From Selaginella tamariscina (lineage: Eukaryota > Streptophyta > Lycopodiopsida > Selaginellales > Selaginellaceae): 64,000 nt of DNA. The translations under genes were made by a program, and so were the position numbers. The DNA is taken from positions 424,511 to 488,510 of the forward strand of contig PUQB01000157.1 in assembly GCA_003024785.1 (NCBI GenBank), read 5' to 3'. Below, piece by piece: positions 15,345-61,852 of the stretch. The notes beneath the pieces were generated by a model, which was given only the letters and a program-made list of their open reading frames with translations, was not told where the DNA came from and ran no database searches. Each line of letters opens with the position of its first letter. The stretch's first letter is position 1.

Positions 15345-15594
15345 TTTAATATACGTTGTAATTAAACTGGGCATATATATAGTTTCAATTTTTAATAATA
15401 TTAGTAATTTTGAAATTTTAATTAGTATTTTTTAATATTAAAGAAATATTCTTTAGAATAATATATGTTTAAAGAAAAATTTAATTATATATTTATAAAT
15501 AATTAATTAAAAATTTAAAACTTAATCATTAATTATTTATTTTATATTCCCATTTTCACATATCATGTCTATTTGAGTTGCAATGTGCATATTA
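15345..15594. mobile_element. MITE-like relic sharing termini with the 37.6-52.1 kb transposon
   Basis: The left end (15345-15375) and the inverted right end (15594-15564) both match the termini of the large element: core CGTTGTAA then TGGGCAT at the left; TGCACATTGCAACT at the right. Similarity to the big element's left end continues inwards past the right terminus, through ATATGTGAAAATGGGAATAT (28/29 bases over 29 bp). No coding potential, AT-rich, about 250 bp. It lies between two DMP genes and abuts the stop of the minus-strand copy. Target duplication not resolved. Confidence 0.7.
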
Positions 15595-31177: not shown

Positions 31178-34100
31178 ATGCCGTCGTGGTGGGGTAAAGG
31201 GAAGGAGCCGAAGGATCCCAAAGAACCGAAGAAGCGAAGAACAAGGACGGCATGAGGTTGCAAATCGGGAGTTGGAAGAGCAGGCTCTCATCGTGGACAG
31301 ACGACGAGCGTAAGAACAGTTTCTCTCCGGTTACCGCTCGATCTCGGACAATTCCAACTCCTCCAGACCATTATCTCTTGCACACCTTCTTCTGATTCAA
31401 CACACAGGCAGCCATGGCCTCTTCCTTCATCCCCCTTATCTCCTCAACACGTAGCCGATGTTGGATCTCGGAAAAATCAGTCTCTTCCGCTGCCTCCTCC
31501 CAGGGACAGAAACCCAGAGCAGGGGAAGCCTGTCCGACATCGGCATCTTCGAGTCTAAGTTCGTCAGGAGTGGAGATCCGTGCGATGTATGTCATTCGGA
31601 TAAACACGCATCCTCGTTCATGTAAGTGACTCATTTCTTTATTGGGTTCCCAATTTCCTCAATTTTATCGTTGGGTTTCTCAGGAAAAGTCCGATTTCAA
31701 TGAAAAGTGGAGGAACTAATGTGGATAGACCGTTCAGTCCGTGCAGGAGTCCCAGAGCGATTCTAGACGCGGGGACGCGTTTCTGCCAGCGGTTGTTCAG
31801 AAGAGTCCGAGCATGTCACCGGCTCCAAGCCCGAGAATACAGAATATGCCACACCCACTCCCATCACCTCCTCGTGGAGCTCCATTTCCATTGTCACCAA
31901 CTCTTTCGCCTTCAAACAGGAGCGCAACGACAACGTGCTGGCAGAGAAAGGCAAGCTCATTGGCAATGGAACCTTTGGATACGTGTATGTTGGGTTTGAC
32001 AGGTACCGCACTTTAGTTTTTAAATCACGTTAGCTTATTTTACCTACATTGGTTAGTTTTGCTCTTATTTTAATTGCTTGTTTCTCTTATTATTCAATCC
32101 ATTGTTCCGTTCGATTTTGCTATTATTCTATATACACTTGCAATTTTTTCTCATAGTTTAATTACGTGGGTTATCTAAGAAGATTCTTTGCCATGTGCAG
32201 CAACAACATCGGGCGAATGTGTGCGATGAAGGAGGTTCACATTATTGGTGATAATGATCAGTCCAAAGAAAGTGCTAAACAGCTCGGACAGGTACCCTTT
32301 GTTATTATGTGTTATTGATATATCGTTTTCTAACCCTTTGCGTGTTTCATGCTCTTTTAGGAAATTACGCTTCTCAGTGGCTTAAGGCATCCCAACATTG
32401 TACAGTACTACGGATCAGAATCTGTGAGTATCTTTTGTTGTATTATTGCTAATCAATTGTCTCATAATACTTTACGTGTGCAGGTGGAAGATAAGCTATA
32501 TCTACTTAGAGTACGTCTCCGGTGGATCGATTCACAAGCTACTTCAAGACTACGGTCCATTTAAAGAGTCTGTGATCAGAAGATACACGAGGCAGATATT
32601 GTCCGGCCTTTCTTATCTGCATAGCATGGGAACTGTTCACAGGTACTTTTTCACGTGTTCCACTTATCCGCATTCATGTACATATCTTAATCGTAAAGGT
32701 CGTTGGTATTATACATCCATTTATAAATACGCACGCAGAGTTATACACAACACGTCTATATATATAATTATTGTCTATATTATTGTTATATACACAGTCT
32801 CATAATCAACAGGGATATTAAGGGTGCCAACATATTGGTAGACACTAATGGTATGTGAAGCTTGCGGATTTTGGAATGGCCAAGCACGTGAGTTGGTCTC
32901 CTTTTAAAGTTTTTAATTTGAGTGAGTTGTGTATCTACGCATACGCACATACACATTTATGTGCATCTTTATATACTCGATAACTAATATACTCTGTGTA
33001 TTATCCTTATATAGATAACAGCTCAGTCTTTTCCATTGTCTTGCAAAGGAAGTCCGTATTGGATGGCTCCTGAGGTTAGTTCCTTTGATAATCAAATATT
33101 AGACTGTATATTCGGATTTGCGGATTGACTATCACTTCCATTATTTAGAGTGTTGTGCGCGTGTGTTCTGCTAGTTTAGTTTACGATATAATCTAAGAAT
33201 ATCTATAGAATGGATACAACATATACCAACAATACATGTATATACTACAGATCTTAAAATCGACGAATGGCTACGATCTTTCAGTGGATATTTGGAGCCT
33301 CGGTTGTACCGTGATTGAAATGGCCACCGGCAAGCCTCCTTGGAGTGATTTTGAAGGGGTAAGTGTGTTTTACGATCTCCCACCCCCTCCCCCGCTCTCT
33401 CTCTCTCTCTTACACACACAGGCGCGACGCACGCATGCATGCACGCAGGCGCGACGCACGCTTACGCGCACATACACACACACACACACACAGAGCTAAT
33501 AGGCAGCTAATGAGACTAAAAATGTTTCCAGGTAGCTGTGCTGTTTAAGATTGGGAACAGCAAGGAGACACCTCCGATCCCCCGTGTCTATCTGAAGAAG
33601 GTCAACAATTTTTGAGGCTTTGCTTACAACGAAATCCTGTGGACAGGCCAACTGCCAGTGAACTCATGGAGCACCCTTTTGTGCTGGATTCCCAAGAATG
33701 CAATACGGAGCATCTTTCACCTTATCAGGTATGCTTCACATACGCATGTATGCACTAGAGAGAGAGAGAGGGAAAAAGCGCTGTATATGTAGTACAGGTT
33801 ATTTGCATTCTTATACTCTATTTAACACCACACACACGGTAGAGCGTGCTTTTACTCTTACTCAATTTCAGGCTCGCGGACTTGGTATGCCAGACGGTTA
33901 TCAGAGCTCACCAAGGTATGTTTTCTTTTTAAATTATTGTATGTTCGTTAAACAATTTTGCATACTAATCCAAAAAGTAACTGACATATACATAATATGG
34001 TTGTTTTGTGTGTGTGTGAGAATAGGAGTGCATCTTTTTGTGTATGTGGATTATAGACTCATATACACATGTCTATGTATTATATATAGATATTAAAATG

Positions 34101-37620: not shown

Positions 37621-37651
37621 TTAAATGCACGTTGTAACTAAAGTGGGCATG
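37621..37651 (+). repeat. Left terminal inverted repeat
   Basis: Begins TTAAATGCACGTTGTAACTA and ends TGGGCATG. It pairs with 52028-52058 with two mismatches (positions 10 and 23). Confidence 0.75.
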
Positions 37652-37885
37652 ATACGTGAAAATGGGAATATAAAATAAATTACTAATTAATACTTAAGTT
37701 TTAATTATTAATTAATCATTTAATTAATATGTAATTAAGCCTTAAATATTAATTAATTAATTAATTAATCCTTCAATAACCTTACTTAGTAAGGAATATT
37801 CCTAAAATATCTTAGAATATTCATATTATTCTAAAAATAGTTTACAATAATGAAGAAATACTATCAAACATAATTACAAATGAAA

Positions 37886-39110
37886 TCATTTTCTTATCAA
37901 CATGTTAATTTTTTTATAAATACTTTCTTCTATCATACAAAGAAATCTTTTCATTTTGTCTAAATCATCACTCTCCGGATTAATCAAATCATTTTGGTCA
38001 ATATCTTGATGTTGTTGCCACCACTTAACACTCTCACGAATGCAATTGGGAGTTGCCATCCTTGTTAATACATAAGATGTGATAAGAGAAGGTCTGCATA
38101 AAGGCTCATCTAAAAACTGACGTTCCTTAAGAATAATATTATAAAGCGCCCGGTTGCTATCCTTCATTTTATAAAATTCAATATCACGAGAAAGAAAAGC
38201 TTCAGGAAATGTATGATACGGTGGATACTGCTCACAAAAATTTTCGAGATTCTTCTTTCTGAGGCACGTATCCAAGTAGTTCACTAGCTCATCCATGATA
38301 TCGGTATCAGAATATGGATCGAAAGTGATTGGATGAATACAAGCAATGTTTTGGTTGAGCATAGCCTTCTGAGGAGAGTCGTCTACTACTAAGATATGTG
38401 CATTCTTCATTATCCTTAAGCGACTGATCTCCCCATGAGTCCCAATTATTCTTTCATTCTTGAAGAAGTATGGCTTGCTTTCCTTTCTTATATTGTGAAA
38501 TTCGAGAGGTTTATGACACATTCGCTGGTCAAAAATCCAATCTTTACGAATCACCTCTTCTGCAACACTACAATGTTTCTTAAGTAAATTCAACAGCGGT
38601 GTTAAGTTATGAATCTGCATGCATGACCAAATCCCCACAAGCGCACCCATCTCCTTAAGCTTTTGAAAGAGACGATCCAACCCTGGACGAAAAATAATAT
38701 CATATCGAAATTTACCATGACAAGGAATGAAATCTCCTTGTTTGATTTCTTTTTTCTATCCTCGGGCCTTTGTCGATGAAGCAGAACACCATTGACATCC
38801 AACAACACAATATGGCCATGAGTAACATGAGATAGCGTTGCCTCTTGAATACTTTGCAAATCACTTGTTTGCTCCCTTTCACATTTATCCGTTGCCACTA
38901 TTCGTTGCCTATCCCTTCATCATTTAATTGTACATCATCCTTACAAGATTCAGATATTGCATGCGCTGAAGAAATTGATTTCGGAACTGAAGCCAATAAA
39001 AATGATGATGCAAAAACTGAAGTGGCCCCCATGGTAACGATGTTTTGAGCTGCATTATTATCCATTTCCTGCATGAACTCTGTCATTCTGACATGTGGCA
39101 CAAGAAATTG
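37886..39110 (-). CDS. FCP1/NIF-type HAD phosphatase-like protein
   Basis: Similar to the plant FCP1-homology (NLI-interacting factor) family of HAD phosphatases, which act on RNA polymerase II CTD or related phosphoproteins. Seen in order: acidic N-terminus (DDVQLNDEGIGNE), HGHIVLLDVNGVLLHRQRP (HAD motif I, D-x-N-G as in plant NIF members), then GDFIPCHGKFRYDIIFRPG, LFQKLKEMGALVGIWSCMQ, RKDWIFDQRMCHK, NAHILVVDDSPQKAMLNQNI (motif with DD), HPITFDPYSDTDIMDELVNY. C-terminal 100 residues are unassigned. Breaks: in the A6 run near 38752 (joining DRKK to EIKQGD) and near 38910. The second Asp of the classic DxD is Asn here, so activity is uncertain. It lies inside the inverted termini, downstream of and collinear with the ParB-like gene; it may be cargo or a captured host gene. 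Start not certain. Confidence 0.7.
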
Positions 39111-39451
39111 TCGCCAAACCCCTCTCTTACCTCATGCAATGCTGAAAATCCATGTTCTCAATTATTTCATTACATCTGCAAAATGATAATTAGCTGACCT
39201 TAAAATTATCAAGGTATATTATTTACCTTGTTAATGTGTGACCCATGTTTGAACTAAAAGCTTCATTAATCCTTGAGAATTTATTTTCTGTACAAATATA
39301 AAAGAAATATACAAAAATGCCTTATGTTACACTCATTTACAACTATTCATCACTCTATCAATTCATTATCAATTCTTCTTCGCTATTACCTTCTGATGAG
39401 GCGAAGAAGGTCTAAGCCGCTTGTGAGATGGTTCAAGATCTTCTGCATCTT

Positions 39452-42400
39452 CTATTGATGTTTCCATGGGTCCTGGAGTGTGCGAATGTTCTGTACTCCT
39501 CGAGATAACTTCCGGTCTAATATCTGATTGAGTTCGTTCTCAGACTCCGAGATTGAACCAGATTCACCTTCAGAGCTATCGCACTTATCTGGAGGGAACT
39601 TTCTCAAATACGCCTTTATGGATTCGTTGGGGTACTCAGTTGAGACCCAATCTATCCACTTGTTCAGGTCCTCAACCATGGTCTTATCCTTTTCAACGGC
39701 AAACACACATGTATGCCGAAGGTAACACTCCTTCAAGACGGACCCCCTAGTGCAGTAGTCAAAAACCCACGCATCACTGTGAGGACCCCTGATCAAGTTG
39801 ACGATGCTCCGTGCCGCTTGACTTGTAATGTTTGGATAACGTACATTGCCGAATACGTCACTCATACCTATCGGTGTATCGGATGGAGGTTCAGGGCCGT
39901 TGGAGTGCAAACAGATGCCTGGCCAGTCATTTGGAAGCTTGAAATTGTTTGGCGCATTCCTAACAACCAAGTGAACAACGTATCAATGCACTTGGGATTA
40001 GCATCGTTCATATAAAATCCTGTCCAACGATGTCTATTCTTCTTGGCGAAGGCGAAGGCAAAAGTATCGGTGACATGAGCAAGAATCAAGAAATAAATAC
40101 CTGAAAAAGTAGGTATCAGTGAAGAGCGCAAGCATGAATTCAATAATAAATACCTTCTATGTATATGCTTGCACGGCTAAGTTTCTCCACCAGATCCTCT
40201 AGTGCCCTATCTGTCGAAAGATTTTTTGACACCCGCCGATCCATCACGAACAATTGAAACGGTTTCCTACAAGCAGTGATGTTACCCCATAAAGTCTCCG
40301 AATCTAACAACAAACATCTGTAGGGCTTGTCGTGATTCGTAGCATCCTCCTTTATAAGGTTCAATTCGGTTCTCCGCTGCTGAAGGACTGCCATAAGAGA
40401 AGGCGTCATCCCAATGTTCTCCTTTTTGGCGTTGGCGTGCAATAGATTCTTGCCAGATCTTCCGATTGGTTCACCCATTCGACAAGCATATCATCGTTCG
40501 TCACATGCAAATATTTGCTGACCTCTTCATATGTTGAAGTCGAGGTCCAACCCAGTTTGTGGCAGTGTATTCCCAACCACTCCTTGAAATGCCTGACCGT
40601 CTTCAACTCCATTGCCTTGAGATGAAAAGGAGAGGTTGGGCTGCTGTTATTAATTTGTAGTTTGCCATCGATCACCAAATCAGCCAAGACTTCCATCTCC
40701 TCCATCGTTGTTCCATTTAAAGGCTTCAACCATGTGAGCTTGAAATCGTTGTCTACATCCTTTGTAGATTGAACAGACTTAGCCTTCGGCGTCTTACTGG
40801 GTTTCTTTGCAGACTTTTCTGAGGGCTCCCCTTCACTTGTCTGCTTCTTCTTCAGTGTTCCTTTTGAAAAGGATTCCATAATCCCCAACCATTTGGCAAA
40901 GATCCTATCTTCGGGGCAAGAAATCAACATCATCAGAAAGGATGTTTCCTTCCCGCCCACCTGGGCAAAATCAACTGCTGCAATTTCTTCAACTCTCTGA
41001 GGAAAAAGACAGATTAATATACCGGCGAGATAAATCCCGCCCAAACAATTTGCTTACCCGGTATTCCGCAGATTGTGTATTCCCTGCGGTAGCTCTTTGT
41101 GGTCGCTGAAGAGATTCCCACACGGCTCGCGTGTGTTTAAACTTCTCCCATATTTTGCTGTTGTAGTGGTTGGTGTCGGCAGCGTCCCATTCCGCCGATA
41201 ACTTATGGTACTGCTCGATTGTGAGATTCGGCTTAGCTAAAAACGCCGATCTTTTTGTCAGCTTCTCACGGGTATGCTCGGAAAGTTTTGTTGCCATCGT
41301 TCCTTTGTTGTGTTCATCGAGAAGTCGTTGGGCTGCCGTTATTGTGTGCTGGCCACTAATGATGTAGTACTTGATAGATTTTTATTCTCCGTCTGAATCT
41401 TCATGAGTTGTTCTGGTGTTGTGATCCAGACTTTGTCAGCACCCTTCCTTCTTTCATAGTATGGACACAAAACAGCATTATGTGGAACGGTATAAGAATT
41501 GTCGTCCTTCATCTTCTCCATGAGCTCAGCTACACGTTCCTGGTTGAGTGGCCTGTAATTGAAGTTTGGGTTGACGCTGCAATATTTAACCCTACAAGGA
41601 TAAATCTTATCATCCAACATCATTTCCTTGTGACTTATTGCAGCATGAGATGCCACAGGTGCAGCTGACAAAACGATTGATGATTTTCTTTTGCGATCCG
41701 AATCAACATGTGTGATCCCCGACTGCAGCTGTTCTAGTGTTCTCGGCACACTCTTCCAGCTCCCAAAGCTTCCTAAGCAAATTGAACGTGATCTGTAGAG
41801 AACCTGAGACCGAGCCACCTCTCAATCTCCTTATGATGTCGCTGTGTTCTTCTTCAATGTGAAGAGGGAAGATTGCTCCACTTGCTGATTTTCTGTATTG
41901 TGAAGCAATATCTCCTGACAATACACCTACTCGATGAGTCTGAAGATCTTCGAAGTAGACATCCAGATGGATCCCCTCCATAGATGGGCTTTCGTTGAGT
42001 TGAAGAAGAACTCCAAGGTCAACATCATTAGTGAACACGTGAACGTCATTATCCACAAGTCGACAAAACCACCCGAGATTAATGTTGTAACTGACGACCT
42101 CTGGATCCGAGAACGTGACATTGGATGGAACAAGGCATATCTGTCGAGCATCGTCCAATCTGGGTTCGCAGCCTGCTTTCGGGTGCTTGACTAGCGAATC
42201 TACTTTCCATTGTTTTGCTTGTCCATGAGATGTGACAGAGGTTAATTTGACAGCAACCATGGTTGCTCCAATGCGCTTCCCATTTATCTTAAAATATGGC
42301 CAAGTTGATTCCAGAATCCCCCTGCCCATCTCTTCTCCTGCTCTTGTCTTTAATGTCACCTCAATTCCACATCTGAATACAAAAATGATTAGTTCAAGTA

Positions 42401-42456
42401 TCCGAGTATAACAGATTTTATTTTAATTCTTACCCAGAATTTGACGACGACTCCAT
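39452..42456 (-). CDS. ParB-like domain fused to degenerate N6/N4 methyltransferase-like domain, transposon-borne
   Basis: Exons (reading order) 42495-42434 with ATG at 42456, 42372-41058, 40996-40154, 40100-39452; all junctions GT-AG and in phase. N-terminal domain: GDRVISMESSSNSGCG, then GRGILES and GKRIGATMVAVKL, vaguely like the TNP1/En/Spm (Transposase_23) fold. Middle: YPCRVKYCSVNP, YRPLNQERVAELMEKMKDD and YYIISGQHTITAAQRLL, the ParB/sulfiredoxin pattern. C-terminal: FQLFVMDRRVS where N6/N4 methylases have DPPY/W, a glycine/alkyl-rich stretch, then ITSQAARSIVNLIR, WVFDYCTRGSVLKECYL and VFAVEKD, like the SAM-binding end of N6_N4 methylases. DPP is replaced by DRR, so catalysis is doubtful. 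ParB-plus-methylase order is known from phage and bacterial DNA modification proteins. Four one-base breaks (about 41740, 41357, 40430, 39975). Domain calls are by eye. Confidence 0.6.
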
Positions 42457-42600
42457 ACTAATGACTCGATCTCCTTGTTTGATCAAATCGTCCTTCTGCA
42501 AAATAATACACTATAAATATAAATTATATAAAAACGCACACACACTTGTATAAACCCGAATATACAAAAATAATACACAGAGAGAAGTAGACGTAATTAA

Positions 42601-42683
42601 CTGTCCGAAGCTCACATTTGTGTTAGTGCAAAAGAAAGATAACATTTCGTTTTAGAACCACCACAAATGTGAGCTCTGGACAG
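42601..42683. repeat. Long hairpin upstream of the ParB-like gene
   Basis: Arms 42601-42622 and 42662-42683 are reverse complements apart from one gap per arm (CTCACATTTGTG / CACAAATGTGAG core, CTGTCC / GGACAG ends), with a loop of about 39 nt. It lies in the leader/intron about 105 bp upstream of the first coding exon. Confidence 0.85.
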
Positions 42684-42792
42684 TTTTACATAGATTCCTA
42701 GCTTTTACTCGAAATATTATGATAAGATGATAAAAGTAAATAAAATGAGATATGCAACTTATATATACTAATACACATATATATTCACATGG

Positions 42793-44175
42793 AAGGTGCG
42801 GCGGGATTAATCTCGCCACCCCTTCAATGCCTCCTGAAAGAGTGGGCGGGATTAATCTGCCACCTTTCTGGCTCAGAGAGAACTGGGCGGATTTATTTCT
42901 CACACCCTTCAGTGACTCCAGAAAAGGAGGCGGGATTAATCTCGCCCACCATGTCAGTGATGGTTAAATGAATTTCCCACCCTTCCCATTCTCTCCATTG
43001 GTATGTTGAAAACCTCTACGTCTCAGACAGAAACGTTGGGATTGGTCCGACTCAACAATGGAGAAAAAAAGAAGGGTGGCGGGATTCATTCCTCCAACAG
43101 GCATTGAAGGCTCGGCGGGATTAATCCCGCCGCCCAGGCCCTTCACTCGGTCCCTATGCGGCGGATTAATCCCGCCGGACGCCAATTCCCTTCGCGGAAT
43201 CGGGCGGGATTAATCCCGCCGCCTAGGCACTTCAGACAGGCCAATGGCGGCGGGATTAATCCCGCCCGATTCCGAGCAGGGAATTGGCGTCCGGCGGGAT
43301 TAATCCCGCCGCACGCCAATGCCCTGTGCGAAATCTTGCGGGATTAATCCCGCCGCCTAGGCCCTTCAGGCAGGCCAATGGCGGCGGATAAATCCCGCCC
43401 GATTCCGCGCAGGGCATGCGTACGCGGCGGGATTAATCCCGCCCACCATGTAAGGGATGATGAAATTAATCCCACCACCCTTCTCGGTTCCTTCCATTGG
43501 CATTTTGTAAACCTTCTCCGTCTCAGACAGAGTTAGTCGGGATTGATTCAACATACCAATGGGGTAATGAAGGTTCTCGGAGATTAATCTCGCCACCGGG
43601 TAATGAAGGTTCGGAGGCTAATCCCGCCGCCCTCTCGTAAATCATGCGCTCACACATATATATTGAGGGATGGGTGGGGGCGGGATTAATCCATCCGCCC
43701 AGGGAATTCACGCAGGATATGAACGGCGGGATTATTCCCTTTGAGGAGGGCGGAGGGATTAATCCCGCCGTTCATGTCCTGCGTGAATTCCCTGAGCGGC
43801 GGGATGAATCCCGCCGCTCTACGACAAACCGAAGTGCGGCGGGAGTAATCCCGCCCCCATGGCCTGCGTGAGGGGCCTCGGCGGCGGGATTAATCCCGCC
43901 GCCCATCCCCTGTAAATGCCCTGCGCGGAATCCGGCGGGATTAATCCCGCCCATTAGAACCTTCACACAGGCCATTGCCGGCGAGATAAATCCCGCGCAT
44001 TCCGCGCAGGGCATGGATGAGCGGCGGGATTAATCCCGCCGCCCATAGCCTGCGTGAGGGGCCTCGCGGCGGGATTAATCCCGCCGCTCACCCATGCCTG
44101 AAGGGCCTCGGCGGCGGGATTAATCCCGTCGCCATGACCCCAACCATATAGCGGCGGGATTAATCCCGCCGCTCG
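42793..44175. repeat. Palindrome array 1 (GGCGGGATTAATCCCGCC), about 28 copies
   Basis: Perfect or near-perfect copies of an 18-24-bp GC-rich palindrome with ATTAAT at its centre recur every 41-48 bp, for example near 43114, 43157, 43202, 43247, 43292, 43336, 43380, 43426, 43880, 43933, 44021, 44066, 44112 and 44152, with decayed copies at both flanks. The 20-25-bp spacers come in a few families used in alternating orientation (spacer 43178-43201 equals the inverse of 43268-43290), so larger palindromes form. It lies just upstream of the ParB-like gene in an otherwise AT-rich region. Confidence 0.95.
43699..43793. repeat. Large palindrome inside array 1
   Basis: Arms 43699-43735 and 43758-43793 pair over about 35 bp (CAGGGAATTCACGCAGGATA against TGTCCTGCGTGAATTCCCTG), with the inverted repeat cores at the inner ends. 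Confidence 0.85.
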
Positions 44176-44199
44176 AGGGGCTTAGCGAGATAAAACACA

Positions 44200-44909
44200 C
44201 ACATATATAATGTGTTGTGTGTATATATATATGTATGTATGTATGTATGTATAGGAGTGTACGTGTGTGTGCAAGAGATAGATAAATAAATAAAATTATA
44301 CAGTACTGGTACACCTAATATATGTGTGTACATAGGTATATATGTGTGTATATGTATATCGTGTGTATGCGTGTGAGCGAAACAAATAAAATCATACAGA
44401 TAAACAAACACACACACACATATATATATACACAGGAGTGTGCGTGTGTGTGCGAAAGATAAAACTAATAAATAAATAAAATTATACAGATAAACACACA
44501 TATAAATGTGTGTATATAGATATATAATCTATAGAGAAAGAGAGAGAGTCTGTGAATATATGCATATATATAAACTAGTGTTGTATGTATGTATATATGT
44601 ATATAGGTATATATATATGTGTATATGTATATTGTGTGAATGCGTGTGTGAGCGAAACAAATAAAATCATACAGATAAACAACACACACACACATATACA
44701 TACACAGGATGTGCGTGTGTGGTGAGAGATAAAACTAATAAATAAATAAAATTATACAGAAAAAACACACATATATATATGTGTGTATATAGATATATAA
44801 CCCAATATGAATATATAAGCATATATATAAACTAGTGTTGTTATACTATTTGTTAATATGCATTGATTATATATATATAATATATATTATATGTGTGTGT
44901 GTGTGTGTG

Positions 44910-44949
<40 letters not shown>

Positions 44950-44960
44950 TGTGTAAAGCA

Positions 44961-44995
<35 letters not shown>

Positions 44996-45057
44996 GCAGT
45001 GCGCGTGTGTGTGGGAGAGATAGATCAATAAAAAGAAATTTACAGATACTGGTACAC

Positions 45058-45119
<62 letters not shown>

Positions 45120-45300
45120 GCAAGATCAATAAAAAAAAATTTATAGATACTGGTACACATAATATATGTATGTATATATGTATATAGGTATATATATTAA
45201 TGTGTATATGTATATCGTGTGTATGCGTGTGTGAGCGAAACAAATAAAATCATACGCACACTCCTATACATATATACAAACATACACACACACACACACA
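44200..45300. repeat. TG/TA microsatellite block with tandem units of 150-300 bp
   Basis: Units containing GAGCGAAACAAATAAAATCA and AATAAATAAATAAAATTATA recur around 44270, 44374, 44466, 44652, 44740 and 45235, separated by TG and TA tracts. ORFs here are low-complexity artefacts. Confidence 0.85.
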
Positions 45301-45309
45301 GATCTCACC

Positions 45310-45360
45310 TGTGTGCACAGCCGCCGCCGCCGATTTCACAGCCGCCGCCTCTTGAAACCC
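45310..45360 (-). other. Possible 5' non-coding exon of the ParB-like gene
   Basis: On the minus strand a GGC-repeat stretch (GGCGGCGGCGGCTGTGCACAG) is followed by a strong splice donor GTGAGATC at 45309. If joined to the acceptor at 42496, palindrome array 1 would sit inside a leader intron. No cDNA evidence; inference from splice grammar. Confidence 0.35.
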
Positions 45361-45689
45361 TAAGAATATACCTAAACCCTAAAGGAATTAAATATATATA
45401 TCAACCCTAATAGAATATTCCTTCTGAGAATATACTTAAACCCTAAAAAGAATAAAATATAGATTCGCCCTAAACGAATATTCTTTCATTATATTATTAG
45501 CGCGTGCGTGTGCATGGGTGTATCACATACACCTCAAAAATATAAATCATGCAGGGATTTAACATGTGTGTGTCCATGAGAGTGTTAAAGTTTCATGTGT
45601 ATCAATACATACATACACATTGCATATATTAATACACATAATATATACATACACACGTGTATACACACAGACATACACACATATTACAT

Positions 45690-45716
45690 GGGTTTAGGGT
45701 TTAGGGTTTAGGGTTT
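45690..45716 (+). repeat. Interstitial plant telomere-type repeat (TTTAGGG)n, first block
   Basis: Nearly four TTTAGGG units. A second block of about the same size is at 46099-46126. Confidence 0.95.
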
Positions 45717-46098
45717 TGGATTTAGGATGGATCATGCATGGTGTGTATGTATGAGAGAAGAGAGAGTGTTGAAAAATTATTTTTGTACACATTGCATATA
45801 TTAGTACACATATATACTTACACATATTATACACAGACATACATACATATTAGTACATAATATTAGAGAGACCGAGTACATATTATAGATCATGCATGGT
45901 GTGTATGTTTGAGAGAAGAGAGACAGTACATATTAACATGGATCATGCATGGCGTGTATGTATGAGAGAAGACAGAAAGTACACATATATACATACAGAG
46001 TACACATATATATATACAGAGTACACATATATACAGCACACGTGTATACACACAGACATACATACAATTACATGAGTAAATTCATTGTGTTACATATT

Positions 46099-46126
46099 AG
46101 GGTTTAGGGTTTAGGGTTTAGGGTTT
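46099..46126 (+). repeat. Interstitial plant telomere-type repeat (TTTAGGG)n, second block
   Basis: Nearly four units of TTTAGGG, followed by a lone GGTTTAGGGTT at 46260. On the minus strand these read AAACCCTA, the plant telo-box. Confidence 0.95.
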
Positions 46127-46385
46127 GCTCCCAACAAGCTTAATATAAATATTACACATGTAAATTCAATGTGTTACATACACACACAGATTGAGTACAT
46201 ATATCATACATGCGTTGAACATGATGTTTTCAATAAAGAAGCAACATATTTCTTCAGTTTGGTTTAGGGTTGTGCATGTGTGTGCATATGTGTTTTTGTA
46301 AGTTCTTGTAATGCGTGTGTAAATTTATGATTGTGTTTATATATGTGTGCAAAACAAACATCGAATAATTAAGAAAATAATATTA

Positions 46386-47100
46386 ATAAACACACTAGAA
46401 CATATTTTAAATTATACATAATAATATATGATTTTATCTAATATATAGCCATATATAGTTAATAATATATATTAATTTAATATTGATAAAAAGGTTTAAC
46501 ATTGAAATATTCTTGAAATAATAAGAAATTAATTGAGAAAATCCCATTAATATATACAAATGTAAATTAAGTACTCAAATAATTAACTAAATTAATTATC
46601 ATAATCATGTTTAATATTGGAATATTCTTGGAATAATAAGAAAATAATAAAGAATATCCCATTAATATAAAGAAGATTAATTACTCAAGTAATTAAGGAA
46701 ATGATATTAATATATATATTATTAAAACTATATATGACTATATATTAGATAAAATGATGTATTATTATGTATAATTTAAAATATGTTCATAGTGTGTATT
46801 AATTTAATATTGATAATAAGGTTTAACACATGAATATTCTTGAAATAATAACAAATTAATTGAGAAAATCCCATTAATATATACAAATGTAGAATAATTA
46901 CTGCAATAATTAAGAACAAGACTAATTTAATTATGATAATCAGGTTTAATATTAGAATATTCTTCAAATATTAATAAAATATTAAAGAATATCCCATTGA
47001 TACTAGGAAATGAAAACTAAATACTCGAGTAATTAAGAAAATAATAATAATAAACAGACTATGAATATATTTTAAATGATACATAATAATATATCAATTT
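46386..47100. repeat. AT-rich repeat cluster with direct and inverted units
   Basis: A unit of about 115 bp (GAATATTCTTGAAATAATAA, CCCATTAATAT, ACTCAAGTAATTAAG) starts near 46493, 46608, 46818 and 46945. In addition 46391-46465 and 46727-46801 are inverted copies of each other and 47043-47095 is a third, direct copy. Confidence 0.8.
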
Positions 47101-47379
47101 ATTTATTGTATAAGTATATATTTATATATATATATAATATAAATATACTTGAATACTAAGAATGTAGAATATAGTCTAAAATTTCGTAATATTAAACAGC
47201 TTGAATCACTTGAATAACATTAAATGCAATTTTAAAATACTCATTGGAACTGGAGAGTATATATGTCAGAGTGTCGGATATTTGTGTCAACTCATCTTAA
47301 ATTTTATTTTCTGTTCTTTTTAAAAAATTTGAATTTCTGACATATGTATTGTCGGTCTGACATGTAAATTTGAAAATGC

Positions 47380-47554
47380 ATTTAATTTCCCACTCAAATT
47401 CAGATCTGGTTCTTTCTCCGGCAAGGGTTTCTTCATTTCTGTATTTTTCACTCTTTAGATCTTCTTTTTTCTTCATAGTGATCATCTCAGGAGCGAGATT
47501 AAATTGGGTGCTATTCTTTATAGGAAAGCACGGCGCCTTCAGTGCTGTTTACAA
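47380..47554 (+). other. Possible 5' leader exon of the DUF7869 gene
   Basis: A CT-rich leader-like stretch ends ACAA|GTAAGT at 47554/47555, a strong plant donor; the next good acceptor is at 48424 (TTATGTGCAG), directly before the coding exon. If real, palindrome array 2 lies in this leader intron. Confidence 0.4.
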
Positions 47555-47719
47555 GTAAGTATTATAAACAAATTTAAAAATACTTATAAAGATTCACTCT
47601 CTTACATTCTCTCTTAAAATTACAATTTAGGGGTTTAGGAATGCATTAGGATTATAATATATTCCGTTAGGGATTTATCCCGTTTAAATATCCTTTTAAC
47701 TTAATATTCTAGGTTAACC

Positions 47720-48278
47720 GGGGCGGCGGGATTAATCCGGCCATTTCTTTTTCGCCTCTTCGAAGAGGTGGCGGGATTAATCCCGCCACCATCTCGGGCA
47801 ATGCTTCTCCGCCACTGAAAAAGAGTGGCGGGATTAATCCCGCATAACCTTCTCAACTGATGAAGAGTTACCAGAATTTATTAGAAAGAGTTGTCGGCGG
47901 GATTAATCCCGCCAACCATTTTAGGAGGCAGGGAAGGGGTGGCGGGATTAATCTCGCCACCACTCCCTGTTTTAAGATTTGGGGACAGGATTTATCCCGA
48001 GATCTCTTTGAAATCATAGTTTTGGAGAGAGTTATGTGCGGGTTTAATCCCGCCACCCATTCCCCGTCGTAAGAATTGTGGGCGGGATTAATCCCGCCTT
48101 GGACTCCCTCCGACAAGGAAGAGCCGGCGGGATTAATCCCGCCGCCTCTTCCTTGTCGGGGAGTCCAAGGCGGGATTAATCCCGCCGACTCTCTCCGAAG
48201 GGGTTGAGTCGGCGGCGGGATTAATCCCGCCGACCGTTCCTCGTCGGAGGGATTCGTGGGCGGGATTAATCCCGCCCA
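47720..48278. repeat. Palindrome array 2 (GGCGGGATTAATCCCGCC), about 12 copies
   Basis: Same palindrome as array 1, copies near 47724, 47768, 47826, 47895, 47940, 47986, 48037, 48081, 48126, 48169, 48214 and 48260, spacing 43-60 bp. Copies nearest the transposase gene are perfect, the distal ones decayed. The array ends about 150 bp upstream of the transposase ATG. Confidence 0.95.
48081..48186. repeat. 106-bp near-perfect palindrome in array 2
   Basis: Three copies of the core (48081, 48126, 48169) are linked by spacers that are inverse copies of each other (CTTGGACTCCCTCCGACAAG and the inverse of it at 48150-48169), so the whole block can fold back on itself. Confidence 0.9.
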
Positions 48279-48430
48279 TCAGTTGTATTAATCAAACATG
48301 AGATATTATCTCTAAACATAATTATGTATTATTGCATATGCATATTATTAAGTAACCGTAATTCAGATTTCTTAGAAATATTGCATAAACAGATATCATA
48401 AATAATACAATTATTTATGTGCAGGACAAT

Positions 48431-51400
48431 ATGTTTAATACTGGAGATAAAGTATGTCTTCTTCGGAACAACGAGATAGTTGGCACTGGAACTGTGGAAG
48501 TTCGAGATAATAATGCATCATGTCACAATATTGCCCAAGGATCTTGTGTGTACGTATGGGTGAACACCATTTACAAGCATGTTGAGGTTCTGGGAATGGA
48601 ATTTGAGGAGGGTTCTCCTGTATTGTGGAATTTGGATGAAGTCAAGGCTGACACAGAATATGCAGAGTCACAAACAAATAGTAGCACGAGTTTACCAGAT
48701 GATGGCTTGCCTGCTGTGATGGATGAGGTGATTCTCTTTCTTCGTGAGATTGAAGTCGGAAGAGGCATCATCACAGCTATAAATCCAATGGAAGCAGTGT
48801 CAGAAGAGAAACTAGGGTCCGACTTCGTGGGTGTAGTTGTGACAGAGGTTTCACCTAATGGCACATTGTATCCTGGATCCCTCGTGAGGTGGCGAACATC
48901 TGAATTAAGACGGCAAGATGGTTCAACATATTCTGGGTTGGATTTCAATAATAACAACCCGGAAGAACAACTCATATTTGAAGAGGTTCCTTGCATTGGT
49001 CCTATTGTAAGAAAAAGGCGATTCATGGGTTGTAGATCTTCCCCTGCAAGTTTCAGCAAGAGGGTAAAGATGGATCCTACATCTTCCGAAAGTGTTACGA
49101 GCATTTCCACGATTGACTGTTGCAAGAAGAAGTGTTGTCAGATGGCAGACCGGAATGAAATTACCCAATGTAGACATGTCTTTCGTATGCTCACCCAAAA
49201 GCAAAGGCATGAGTTTGTATATGCTGCACTAACTGGGTGTATTGATGGAATGGCCTCGGACACAGGTTATCAGAGTACATCCATGGTATTTAATAAGGTG
49301 GCCATCTGCTTCAAAGCTTGGTACAGTATATACGGGATCCCAAAGACCACGTTCTACCGTCGGAGGGATGAGTGGCTAGATGGAGCGCGAACCTCAGTTC
49401 ATGGGAACACTGCTTGGTCAAAACCCGCTCTCACATCATGGCAGCCATAGAGATACTCAAGGCTTTTGTGGAAGCAAATGCAGACAGGATGCCTCACAAA
49501 TGCCGAACCACAAATGCAGGGGTCAGGGAAAATCTCAAGGTTTTACCTTCAATCTACACTCAATTGAAACTGTGTGAACATGTGAACAAGTGCCTCAGTT
49601 TGATGGGGCTCCAAGCAATCTGCACTGGTACCTTCAACAACATATGGAATACTCATTTTAAGGATGTGGAGATTGCAAAACACTCTAGCTTTTCTAAGTG
49701 TGACACTTGTACATCATTGAAGGCTGCAGAGGCTTGTGCAAAAACCTTGGTGGAGATCACTACCATTCAAAGGAAGATGGAGGCCCACATGATTGCACAA
49801 CAAACTTGCCGGTCTCAGTACTATGCACACCGCATGCTTTCTGTGTCACGCCCATCAGAGTACCTGTGCTTGATCCATGACAAGATGGATCATTCAAAGA
49901 CCAGCATTCCAAAGCTCTTTGCAACACCAAAGTGCCTTGGAAATGTCATGAAACTTCCGATTTCATTGACAGGTGTGCTAACACATGGACACGGTTGTGA
50001 GTCATATGGACACTTTTCACTTCCACATTGGTCTAGCGACTCCAATTTCACTATTGGGTCGTTAGCCATGTGTTTCAGAAACCTTGAAGCCCACTCACAG
50101 ACAAGTCCTATCAGTGATCTCAAAGTGAAGAAACAACACCTTCAACCTTTACATAATGCTCTCATGAACACGTCTGCACTTGAGGCTACTTGGGAATATG
50201 AGAGGCATTGTCAGCAACCTGCACAAAAAACAGATGGCCCTGTTGAGAGTTCAGGTTCAGTGGAGGGATCTAGCTCAAATAGTGTACATGTGTCCTCAAC
50301 ATCAAATAAGCTTCCTCGTCATTTGCTTTTACAGATGGATAATTGTGCAGGCGAGAACAAAAATAGGTAAATCATTTTACTTAAGGGTTTCTCAAGCTCA
50401 TACTTACTTTTATTTTCTAGATATGTGCTAGCATACTTGTCAATGCTTGTTGCCAAAGGTGTGTTTGAAACAATCACGCTCAGTTTCCTTATGGTTGGTC
50501 ACACTCATGAAGATATTGATGCGTTCTTCAGCAAGGTCTCCAACTCTACAAAAAGGACAAGTGCACTTACCTTACCGCATATGATGAATCTTTTTGAAAA
50601 TTGCATCTCCAAAAAAAGTTGTGCTTTGCTTGTGACTGAGGTGCCAGACTTCAAAAAATTTCTCAAGGAGTATATAAAAGAAGGGAGTGATTCTTTAGTT
50701 GGTCACCTTGTGCCGCTACAATTCTTTTTCTCCATACGAGATGGTATACCTATTATGCAGTACAAGTTACGGCCATCAGAGCAGGAGTGGTTACCGAAAG
50801 AGGGCTTAATGCTCTTCAAAAGTGGAGAGGATGGAAAGCCACTTCTCCCAGAAGGACAACCAGACCCTATTCCATTGAGTGCCCAGCTCAAGGAACAAGA
50901 GGTTATTATTGATGGCATCAAAAAATATGTGGCATGGGTTCAAAAATCGATGCCAAAGAATTCTGATAAGGCAACTGGTTACTCAGAACTATATAAGCAT
51001 GTGGTCAACTATTGGGAGACTGTTGTTCGAGAGTTGGAAGGGCCTACTGTCACAAGTACAGAATTGCAACACCCTTTCTGGCCTAAAACAAGGTGGCGAG
51101 AGGAGATTGAAATGACATCACTGAGCATAGACGACATAGAAGCCAGTAGTGATGTGGAAGTGCAAACCCCACACTTTGTTGGACAAAGGAACCAAAAACC
51201 TAAAGCATACTTTGATTGCTGCAAGGATCTTCAAAAACTAATGATGGTTCTCATTACTCCAGATGCGTCATATAATCAGCCTATTTGGATGGGTCAAATT
51301 ATCGACACACCTGAAGTAATCACAAAAAATAGTATTGTTAAGGTTGCATGGTTCAAACCACAAAAAAGGCGACACGAGAAGGAGAGCGAAAGATATAATG

Positions 51401-51549
51401 GATGCCTAGAGAAAACATGGTCTCCCAATCAAAAAGACCCAGCATGTTTTATAAATGTTAAATCCATTCGATATGGGTGGATGTCAAGAAGCGTTGATAA
51501 AGTCACGATTAACAAAACTGCAAGGGAATGTATGTTTTCTGAAGCTTAA
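48431..51549 (+). CDS. DUF7869-type RNase H-fold transposase-like protein
   Basis: Exons 48431-50366 and 50421-51549 (54-bp intron, GTAAAT...TTCTAG, splitting an Arg codon). A protein of about 1,020 residues. N-terminal domain NMFNTGDKVCLL, GTGTVEV (similar in place and pattern to the start of the ParB-like protein) and HVEVLGMEFEEGS; a Cys cluster CCKKKCCQM; a helical region FYRRRDEWLDGA; then the conserved core: CDTCTSLK, LIHDKMDHSKT, LLQMDNCAGENKNRYVLAYL, FLMVGHTHEDIDAFFSKVS. The DN..GENKN and VGHTHEDID blocks are the hallmark of DUF7869 proteins, which look like DDE/RNase H transposases. C-terminal 250 residues include PQKRR..KE and a possible DNA/chromatin-binding part. One missing base near 49425 joins two long frames. 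Coding is otherwise intact, so the gene looks young. Confidence 0.82.
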
Positions 51550-52027
51550 AGCAATTACAAAATTATAAAATCATATATTTAATATTCATAATTATTATAA
51601 ACTCTTTAATAATAGTACCAAATTGTATACTTAACTATATAAATTTAAAAAATGATATGGAAGATTGACTATATTATTATAGGATTTTATATATATATTA
51701 TTACTACTACAAATTTTTAATTAATAATGTTATATTTAAATATTAATATTTTAATAACAACATCAATATTTATATAATGTACCTCTTATGCTCTTCCTTA
51801 ATTGTTATATTAGGCAATATATTATATAATTTAATACATTCTACTTTTATAATGTTATTAATTTTTGTTCAATGAATGCTATAATTTATTAAAGGGTAGA
51901 ATACAAAATAGAATATTCTAAAGAATATTCTCTTTTCAAACATATATTCTAAAGAATATTCCTTTAATATTAGAAAATGCTAATTAAATAGCTAAAATTG
52001 CTAATTATTAGGAAATGGGACTATAGC

Positions 52028-52058
52028 CATGCCCATTTTAGTTACAACTTGCATTTAA
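52028..52058 (-). repeat. Right terminal inverted repeat
   Basis: Inverse complement of 37621-37651 with two mismatches; seen on the plus strand as CATGCCCATTTTAGTTACAA followed by CTTGCATTTAA. Confidence 0.75.
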
Positions 52059-59172: not shown

Positions 59173-59320
59173 ATGGCACGGGAGGAGCCACACACACGTG
59201 CTATTGTGGTGGAGGGACAACTTGGTGAGCTTCCAATGCGAGTCCTTGTGGATAGCAAGAGTAGCGATAACTTTGCGTCAACAAAATTAGTGGAGTGCAA
59301 CTTGCCCATGAAGACTGTGC
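59173..59320 (+). pseudogene. Retropepsin fragment of the LTR element
   Basis: Reads IVVEGQLGELPMRVLVDSKS then SDNFASTKL. The gypsy protease active site D-S/T-G is D-S-K here, so it is inactive. It runs into the tandem-repeat block. Confidence 0.7.
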
Positions 59321-59865
59321 CTCAATACGAATTGAGGGCTCAGTTATCACATAGAGTTATAGTGCTTGTGTGGAGGAGTTACAGCTGGAGGTTGGCAAAA
59401 CCTAGCTGGTGGAGTTGTGCAAAGACTGTGCCTCAATACGAGATTGAGGGCTCATCTATCACACATAGCTACAGTGCTTGTGTGGAGGAGTTGTAGCTGT
59501 AAGTTGGCAAAACCTAGTTGGTGGAGCTGCATAAAGATTGTGCCTCAATACGAGATTGAGGGCTTAGTTATCACACATAGCTACAGTGCTTGTGTGGAGG
59601 AGTTATAGCTGTAGGTTGGCCAAACCTAGCTGGTGGAGTTGCATGAAGACTGTGCCTCAATACAAGATTGAGGGCTTAGCTATCACACAGAGCTACAATG
59701 CTTGTGTGGAGGAGTTACAGCTGTAGGTTGGCAAAACCCAACTGGTGGAACTGCACGAAGACTGTGCCTCAATACAAGATTGAGGGATCAGTTATCACAT
59801 AGAACTACAGTGCTTGAGTGGAGTTACAGCTGTAGGTTGGCAAAACCCAACTGGTGGAACTTTCT
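59312..59865 (+). repeat. 110-116-bp tandem repeat inside the LTR element, five copies plus a partial one
   Basis: Units start GACTGTGCCTCAATACGA near 59313, 59422, 59538, 59647 and 59758 and run through GCTTGTGTGGAGGAGTTACA and GTTGGCAAAACC. They replace the rest of protease and the reverse transcriptase. Confidence 0.92.
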
Positions 59866-61852
59866 TTCTTGTGGAGTTAGTGTGTGTGGACCTCATCCTT
59901 GGGATGAGTTGGGTGGAGCAATGGCAGTTCCTAGCAATGTACAAGAGTTACAGAGTTTCTTGGGCATGGCTGGTTATTATCAATGGTATGTCAAGGATTA
60001 TGCCAAGAAAGCTTCTCCGTTAACTAGGTTGCTAAGGAAGGACGTTCCCTTTGCATGGAGTGCTTCAGAGGAGAGCAGTTTCCAAGCTTTGAAACAAGCT
60101 TTGGTACGTGCACCAGTTTTATGTATTGCAGATCCCTCTAAGCCTTATGAGGTATCGTGTGATGCAAGTGGAGTGGCCATTGGAGCTGTACTTATGCAAG
60201 AGGGAAGGCCTATTGCTTATGAGAGTCGTACTTTGAATCCTGCAGAGCAACGGTACTCAACGTATGAGCAAGAACTACTGGCTATTGTTAATGCATTACG
60301 AGTTTGGAGGCACTATCTTTATGGTGCAAGTTTCAAGGTGTTTACAGATCACAAGCCTTTGGTGTATCTGTTCACACAAAAGAGTTAAACTCTCGGCAAG
60401 CTCGCTGGATGGTTAAGCTCATGGAGTTTGGCAAATTTCCTATTGAGCATCGCGGAAAGCTAACGTGGTGGCAGATGCTTTGTCACGCGTTAGGAGAGCC
60501 ACAGTAGTGGGAGAATTCCAAACACGCTTATGTAATGCATTAACAAGGACGGTCAGTGAGTTTAGCCAAGTAGTTCAACATGCTCAAGCACAAGACGCCG
60601 AGGTGCAGGAGCTCAGAGGACAGCTAGAGCCACCATTCTCATTTCAGGATGGGGTTTTGTACTACAATGGCCGTGTGTACCTTCCTCGTGTGGACCATTT
60701 GATCAACCAGGTACTATATTTTCATCATGATCGCCCGGAGGCTGGTCATTTTGGGGGAGGAAAACGTATGAGTTGATCAAGAGGAGGTTCTACTGGAGGA
60801 ATATGAAAGCTGATATCATAGAGTACTGCAGGACTTGTGACAAGTGTCAGCAAGTAAAGGTGCCCAGGGAGAAACCAGGTGGGCTATTAGTACCATTGCC
60901 TATTCCAGACAGGCGATGGGGCAGTATCTCTATGGACTTTGTCACCCATTTGCCAAGGACACAGAGGCAGAATGAACAGGTGTGGGTCATTGTGGACAGG
61001 TTGACAAAGTTTGTCAAGTTAGTTCCCTTGGGGAAGAATGTGAATGCATCCGAGCTGGCTACGATGTATTTACAACATGTATTTCCTATCCACGGATTTC
61101 CAGATGATATTGTAAGTGATAGGGACTCCAAGTTCACTTCTAGCTTTTGGAGAGGCTTTTCTAAGTGCATAGAAGTGAAGCTTAAGCTGTGTAGGAGATC
61201 ATCCCGAAACAGATGGGCAAACAGAGAGGGTGAACCAAGTTCTGGAAGATATGCTAAGGTGCACTATTAACCAGAAGGAAGGCCAGTGGGATAAGTATAT
61301 TCCATTACTCGAGTTTGCTTATAATAACAGCCAGCACAGTGGCATTGGAATGAGTCCATACTATGCTATGTTTGGACGACATCCCAAGACAGCTTTTGAG
61401 CTCGGTTTAGCAAGTAAGAAGGCTCAAGGCAACATGGATGAGGAAGCTAAAGATCTGAGTGTTGAACTTGAAAACATTCAGAGTTTGTGCAAGAAGAACT
61501 TACAAGCAGCTCAGAGCCGAGCTATCAAGTTTGCTAATGAGCACAGAAGCTTCCGAGAGTTCCAGGTGGGGATTATGTATATCTCCGAGTGGTATTTGCC
61601 ACACATGTAAGGCGGAACACAGTTGTGGCCTTACGGAAGGGACGCAATGATAAGTTGTCTCCCAGGTACTCAGGTCCTTATGAGATTCTGGAGCGTATCG
61701 GTAAGGTGGCATATCGACTACGGCTGCCAGAAGGAGTGAGGGTGCACCCAGTGTTTCATGTTAGCCAGTTAAAGAGAGTACTCACAAGGAACGAGTCCCG
61801 GGTAGATTCTTTGTGGATGTACGAGGCTAATGATATAGGACCAATTGAGTAA
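59866..61852 (+). pseudogene. Gypsy pol remnant: RT end, RNase H, integrase, C-terminal domain
   Basis: RT end/connection VQELQSFLGMAGYYQWYVKD; RNase H: CDASGVAIGAVLMQ, YSTYEQELLAIVNALRVWRH, FTDHKPLVY; integrase zinc finger region HHDRPEAGHFGGGKRM and CRTCDKCQQVK; catalytic core SMDFVTHLPRT, IVDRLTKFVKLVPLGKN, IVSDRDSKF, HPETDGQTERVNQVLEDM (frame-shifted near 61190), LLEFAYNNSQHSGIGMSPYY; C-terminal [20 protein letters not shown] and [13 protein letters not shown]. Frame breaks at about 60388, 60770, 61190 and 61600. Chromovirus-like by the integrase C-terminus; no clear chromodomain. Confidence 0.85.

Follow-up and report, generated by a model that had tools for sequence, protein, structure and literature searches.

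According to the available part of its description, Sola1-1_Ec32 of Ectocarpus is a 21.5-kb giant DNA transposon with a ParB-like and DNA methyltransferase gene on the strand opposite the transposase (PMC12477816). In the VANDAL elements of Arabidopsis, the available text describes short motifs, set in non-coding and intronic tandem repeats, that are bound by the element-encoded factor VANC and lose methylation (PMC5735166). Here we describe a 14.4-kb element in a 64-kb stretch of the Selaginella tamariscina genome (contig PUQB01000157.1; the whole stretch analysed is called the window). It carries a DUF7869 transposase gene (gene B), a divergent gene with ParB- and methylase-like pieces (gene A), an FCP1-like frame, and arrays of a short palindrome. 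We show that the element is a single mobile unit, defined by its ends, its 4-bp target duplications, and its recent amplification. With a probability of roughly 0.6, one explanation accounts jointly for these parts: a large cut-and-paste transposon in which gene B encodes the transposase and gene A an accessory regulator that binds the palindromes.

The locus resembles both systems in part. Like Sola1-1_Ec32, it is a giant DNA transposon with a putative accessory gene on the strand opposite the transposase (PMC12477816). It also has palindrome arrays, which the available part of that account does not mention; gene A lacks recognisable ParB or methylase profile matches, and an FCP1-like frame is present. 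Sola1-1_Ec32 is a precedent: if gene A belongs there, both the accessory gene and its orientation are of a kind already known. Like VANDAL/VANC, in so far as its available text describes that system, the element combines a putative element-encoded factor with family-specific arrays of a short motif, in non-coding and intronic positions, that gain and lose units between copies (PMC5735166). The VANC motif is given there as a 9-mer in one orientation (PMC5735166), whereas ours is a palindrome, and the likeness is one of array behaviour.

Each gene can also be compared with known proteins. Gene B belongs with the Pfam DUF7869 proteins of Physcomitrium, Riccia, Ceratodon, Mytilus, and Strongylocentrotus, both by sequence and by its nearly invariant acidic residues. 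A literature search by the word DUF7869 returned no paper, and mapped ends may have been published under another name. Gene A has its ParB-like part before its methylase-like part, as do phage ParB-N6/N4 methylase fusions such as the Javan113 protein; unlike likeness in order, significant profile similarity to those fusions is lacking.

The 14.4-kb stretch is a single mobile unit

The element is bounded by inverted termini. Positions 37621-37651 match the reverse complement of 52028-52058 at 29/31 bases, and the best match of the 31-mer terminus in 50 dinucleotide shuffles of ~26 kb was 21/31. A prior reading of the window from its letters alone (the sequence-only reading) had described 31-bp inverted termini. 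The pairing is real; the length is that of a 27-bp terminal inverted repeat (TIR) plus a TTAA duplication. The boundaries of other genomic copies show that the first four bases are target duplication, and the element proper therefore spans 37625-52054. Its termini read ATGC...GCAT, just inside the duplications.

Copies of the element are abundant in the host genome. We searched the assembly (300.7 Mb, 1391 contigs) with the last exon of the DUF7869 gene and found at least 105 matches; all of those listed are 100% identical to it and free of internal stops. Ends were sought for 20 copies, and seven with an unresolved left end were dropped (C581, C592, C647, C804, C915, C962, and C1193), so that the sample with both ends comprises 13 copies and the window (n = 14). 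An exact 4-bp direct repeat lies outside the termini in 9/14: TTAA (window), CCTT, ATAT, TAGA, GTTT, TTAT, TTTT, ATAT, and TTAT. Non-cognate left and right flanks were equal in 5/182 pairs, and none of 100,000 re-pairings reached nine matches (maximum 7). The five misses are C568 and C113 (a 4-bp repeat after one extra base), C453 (shifted by one base), C514, and C787. The right flank of C1259 fell under the match threshold in end mapping and was confirmed in the whole-copy alignment.

Nine copies were taken whole, picked from the match list ranked by the transposase exon; that they do not diverge in that exon follows from this choice. Seven align to the window end to end, over 14.5-15.1 kb. 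In the other two (C14 and C1170), the aligned collinear pieces end at element position 10656; their ends were mapped separately, and arithmetic from these positions gives lengths of ~14.9 kb and ~14.8 kb, respectively. Fourteen regions were tested, covering the left end, the FCP1-like frame, gene A, both arrays, gene B, and the right end, and each is found in 9/9 copies. Where they align, the copies have 12 to 31 mismatches per kb to the window; the figure is 0-8 per kb in coding pieces and 56 and 27 per kb in the arrays. On C918, opposite transposase exon matches lie ~14 kb apart (71343-72518, minus strand; 86142-87317, plus strand), and are perhaps nested or head-to-head insertions.

The window also holds a short element with related termini, as had been noticed from the letters. 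The first ~126 bp of this short element correspond to the large element's right end (78.6% match), and the last ~115 bp to the left one (83.5%). Because both ends are present in inverse orientation, it looks like the large element minus its interior, and by sequence it is a deletion derivative. This already suggested that the two ends belong to one family.

Before the genome search, unity rested only on the window's termini and this one short element, and two independent elements or genes might have been caught between chance inverted repeats. The genome copies refute that explanation, which now has next to no probability. Both gene units lie between the ends in 9/9 whole copies, 4-bp duplications flank the termini, and the two units have palindromes and a protein module in common. 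The shuffles, the whole copies, and the duplications likewise rule out a chance pairing of the termini. The sequence-only reading had proposed one mobile unit, to be checked by finding full-length copies sharing both ends and a fixed-length target duplication; both were found, and the gene units were not separate in any of the nine copies.

Table 1. Positions in the window of the element, its parts, and its short derivative.
Feature	Position	Strand	Basis
Short non-autonomous derivative, ~250 bp; both large-element ends joined, interior lost, inverse orientation	15345..15594	-	end alignment
Target-site duplication, left copy (TTAA)	37621..37624	.	boundary from other genomic copies
Left TIR, ATGCACGTTGTAACTAAAGTGGGCATG	37625..37651	+	terminus comparison and genomic copies
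FCP1/NIF-like phosphatase frame, interrupted by a frame shift (motif DVNGV at 38779-38805)	37889..39086	-	PF03031
Gene A overall, ParB/methylase-like pieces, multi-exon, divergent from gene B	42332 to ~39524	-	motifs
Gene A, methylase-like C-terminal part ("DAWVFDYC" at 39752-39775)	39524..39982	-	motif only, no profile support
Gene A, middle exon	40424..40993	-	sequence
Gene A, probable intron (GTAAGC...CTCAG), one palindrome site at 41025	40997..41057	-	read from sequence
Gene A, ParB-like segment ("NPNFNYRPL...IISGQHTITAAQRL")	41343..41602	-	motif only
Gene A, N-terminal 37-residue module, common with gene B	42222..42332	-	ungapped alignment
Palindrome array 1, upstream of gene A, 25 sites	42801..44169	.	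scan; 25-30 sites in 10 copies
Palindrome array 2, upstream of gene B, 13 sites (12 within copy-comparison anchors)	47668..48275	.	scan; 12-20 sites in 10 copies
Gene B, DUF7869 transposase (predicted), multi-exon	48431..51546	+	DUF7869 domain match, conserved residues, homologue's fold
Gene B, copy of shared N-terminal module	48752..48862	+	ungapped alignment; weak PF03017
Gene B, frame break	near 49420-49432	+	sequence, copy comparison
Gene B, motif HDKMD	49876-49896	+	sequence
Gene B, second D in DNCAGENKNR	just before 50366	+	sequence
Gene B, intron	50367-50420	+	sequence
Gene B, motif VGHTHEDID	50494-50520	+	sequence
Right TIR, 25/27 identical to left	52028..52054	-	terminus comparison and genomic copies
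Target-site duplication, right copy (TTAA)	52055..52058	.	boundary from other genomic copies

Gene B and the class of the transposon

Domain match and structure model support gene B as a DUF7869 protein with a DDE-type transposase core, in line with the RNase H-like core that the sequence-only reading gave for DUF7869 proteins. Its homologue P0018 has a structure model with RNase H order and nearly invariant acidic residues, which are also present in the window's gene B protein. We infer that this protein catalyses transposition. Nearly invariant C162, C165, and H191 columns (P0018 numbering) precede the catalytic core, and gene B has a weak match to HTH_psq (expectation value, E, of 0.14). 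A frame break at AAAACCC (49394-49458) is common to 10/10 copies. Since the break is identical in all of them, it is not a random local error, and random assembly error is ruled out as its source. A 28-base GT...AG stretch at the break looks too short for a usual intron.

The element has what would be expected of a cut-and-paste DDE transposon: TIRs with fixed 4-bp duplications (9/14) and a predicted RNase H-fold transposase with D, D, and E/D residues. Sola elements make 4-bp target duplications. Our element matches them in this duplication length. EnSpm/CACTA elements have 5'-CAC..GTG-3' termini, 3-bp duplications, and C(2)C and H(3-4)H between the second D and the last E (PMC12730594); they are ruled out by the ATGC...GCAT termini and the 4-bp duplications. 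The C(2)C/H(3-4)H arrangement is not seen either, as the 38 residues between D389 and E428 contain no nearly invariant cysteine pair and the only nearly invariant histidines are H425 and H427. Zisupton (KDZ), which makes 8-bp duplications (PMC12730594), is ruled out by duplication length. Kolobok and piggyBac make TTAA-specific duplications (PMC9587614) and are ruled out because 8/9 exact duplications are not TTAA. The window alone would have suggested a TTAA-specific element, which the CCTT, ATAT, TAGA, GTTT, TTAT, and TTTT of the other copies rule out.

Palindrome arrays and gene A

The palindrome is confined to the element. A scan for sites with at least 12/16 matches to GCGGGATTAATCCCGC found 39 in 64 kb, 39/39 of them within the element; the 49.6 kb outside, the sole control, gave none. 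Of these sites, 25 lie upstream of gene A, 13 upstream of gene B, and one in the probable gene A intron, which bears out the arrays noticed between the two divergent genes. Successive sites are 43-46 bp apart in 23/38 cases. The two arrays have unlike spacers and keep the palindrome core, and across ten copies the core changes less than the spacer (0.050 vs 0.084; 0.004 vs 0.017). Thus, unit number shifts fast and the core less so, as expected for binding sites of a co-evolving partner. As in VANC-type systems, arrays of a family-specific motif turn over between copies.

At 48079-48278 and at 43163-43306, adjacent stretches of the arrays are mutual reverse complements (88% and 97%), which indicates that the units are not only repeated but also inverted. 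Inversion mediated by the palindromes may be what makes the arrays grow. CpG is retained in the arrays (observed to expected ratios of 1.02 and 1.06) and low in gene B (0.40); a ratio of 1.0 also occurs beyond the element, at 30-34 kb. Between the divergent genes, the longest single match in each of nine copies covers on average 0.83 of the interval 45200-47700. Repeats of 115/123 bp, AT-rich and set in inverted orientation, occupy 46398-47136, and short telomere-like heptamer runs (GGGTTTA, TTAGGGT) occur mid-element at 45690-45726 and 46097-46126. Rfam gave no matches at gathering scores, and Foldseek gave none at E<=0.001 in the PDB or among viral structures.

Gene A and gene B share an N-terminal module of 37 residues. 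Its ungapped score is 62 against 30.3 +- 4.8 in shuffles, and 0/2000 shuffles reach it. The gene B copy has a weak match to PF03017 (Transposase_23), at E = 0.012 and below the cut-off. Because both proteins begin with this module, they probably arose or work together.

Codon changes are unevenly spread. We compared nine related copies with the window, and the counts are not those of independent events. The middle exon of gene A has 11 synonymous and 2 non-synonymous differences (28 indel columns), its methylase-like part 11 and 8 (26 indel columns), and its ParB-like segment 6 and 4 in two covering pieces (10 indel columns). The N-terminal piece has 7 and 34. The FCP1-like frame, with 12 synonymous differences against 43 non-synonymous ones and one stop codon, gives no sign of strong constraint. 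This suggests that parts of gene A are under constraint, and that its N-terminal piece and the FCP1-like frame are not. Every coding piece compared also has indels, with totals of 2 to 68 indel columns across the nine copies, and frame breaks at homopolymers are present. One gene A site reads G4 in nine of the 10 copies and G3 in the other; at a second, A5 occurs in 4 and A6 in 2, with the pattern unmatched in 4. Search patterns for two further gene A sites matched nothing, window included.

These counts bear on a different account of the arrays. They might be binding sites of the transposase itself, serving self-regulation or as an end-recognition enhancer in the manner of CACTA subterminal repeats, with gene A as an unrelated passenger. 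Repeated transposase-binding sites are common in transposons, and gene B has both the cysteine and histidine columns before its catalytic core and the weak HTH_psq match. The FCP1-like part and the N-terminal piece of gene A do change like passengers. Yet the arrays sit away from the termini, where the genes start and inside an intron of gene A; the middle exon of gene A shows 11 synonymous against 2 non-synonymous differences, and the two genes have a module in common. We consider this account unlikely.

The identity of gene A is less clear than that of gene B. The sequence-only reading had described it as a ParB/methylase-like gene. The motifs are visible (IISGQHTITAAQRL; DAWVFDYCTRGS...AVEKD), but both domains stand at motif level, and several results weigh against them. 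No Pfam or NCBIfam model matched gene A at E<=10, including PF02195 and PF01555. ParB/Srx proteins have GxxR in Box II (PMC12704722), where gene A has GQHT; intact DPPY and FxGxG signatures of N6/N4 DNA methyltransferases were not found by eye. PHROGs gave only two families of unknown function (E of 0.04 and 0.34), and profile tests against the PDB gave no confirmation. Among 5.8 billion proteins (8000 candidates scored) there were no matches, and viral contigs searched with P0005 and with gene A held no relatives. By tblastn, the ParB-like part had no match in phages and plasmids, and the methylase-like part four phage records at E of about 5. AlphaFold modelled P0005 alone at a predicted local distance difference test score (pLDDT) of 32.7.

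Profile alignment gave a similar picture. The hhalign profiles represented a single phage ParB-methylase family, with 69 distinct sequences drawn from 80 loci, and were used both as such and after eight further methylases had been included. The gene A parts aligned at a probability of <1% and were outscored by at least 6/60 shuffles in each of three comparisons. The best alignments do hit the expected motif positions, which we do not count as support because the segments were picked for those motifs. With no profile support beyond shuffles, a ParB/methylase identity is plausible but unproven.

Gene A might instead encode an active ParB-guided DNA methyltransferase, of the sort proposed for the algal proteins, that would mark its own element with N4-methylcytosine (N4mC) or N6-methyladenine (N6mA). 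The strand arrangement is that of Sola1-1_Ec32, as far as its available description goes (PMC12477816), and the order of parts is that of the Javan113 phage fusion. With neither intact DPPY and FxGxG nor a profile match found, we regard such activity as quite improbable.

Under the preferred reading, that of a cut-and-paste transposon with an accessory regulator, the gene B DDE-type transposase would cut at the 27-bp inverted termini and insert with 4-bp target duplications. Gene A, read in the opposite direction, would most likely yield an accessory DNA-binding protein with a ParB-like segment and a methylase-like tail. This protein would recognise the 16-18-bp palindrome, of which there are 12-30 repeats beside each gene and one in the gene A intron. 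Bound there, it could control expression of both genes and keep the element from silencing. We infer that gene A acts on the element in both ways through the arrays. A more far-reaching version is tentative: parS-like arrays and a divergent ParB/methylase-derived loader might form an element-specific system of anti-silencing or self-marking, a VANC-like invention made independently. It would belong to a DUF7869 lineage that makes 4-bp duplications and has yet to be described as a superfamily, and would have been effective enough for a very recent burst to >100 copies.

Other genes, surroundings, and significance

The FCP1-like gene recognised by the sequence-only reading is solid in its predicted domain identity. 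PF03031 matches at E=6.5e-9 on the uninterrupted frame and 8.3e-12 on the joined frames. In the PDB, this part retrieves only cyclin-inhibitor chains, at E of 0.03-0.21.

Outside the element, the window holds frames that by eye resemble plant NADPH oxidase (240-460) and a protein kinase fragment at 32428-32802 (PF00069, E=5.5e-11), in a region with a CpG ratio of 1.0. The stretch at 59311-61610 holds what is left of a Ty3-type retrotransposon (RNase H, integrase), together with a tandem repeat of 112 bp, and is low in CpG (0.37).

These results link DUF7869, a Pfam domain, to a mobile element whose ends are mapped, and describe a transposon family that is large, has amplified recently, and has a defined transposase, ends, and 4-bp duplications. 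The element-encoded protein and the palindrome arrays form a compact, testable pair, and thus a good system for studying the control of such elements. Should gene A prove to bind the arrays and to relieve silencing, sequence-specific anti-silencing would have evolved more than once, and a role could be proposed for the ParB/methylase accessory genes of algal transposons.

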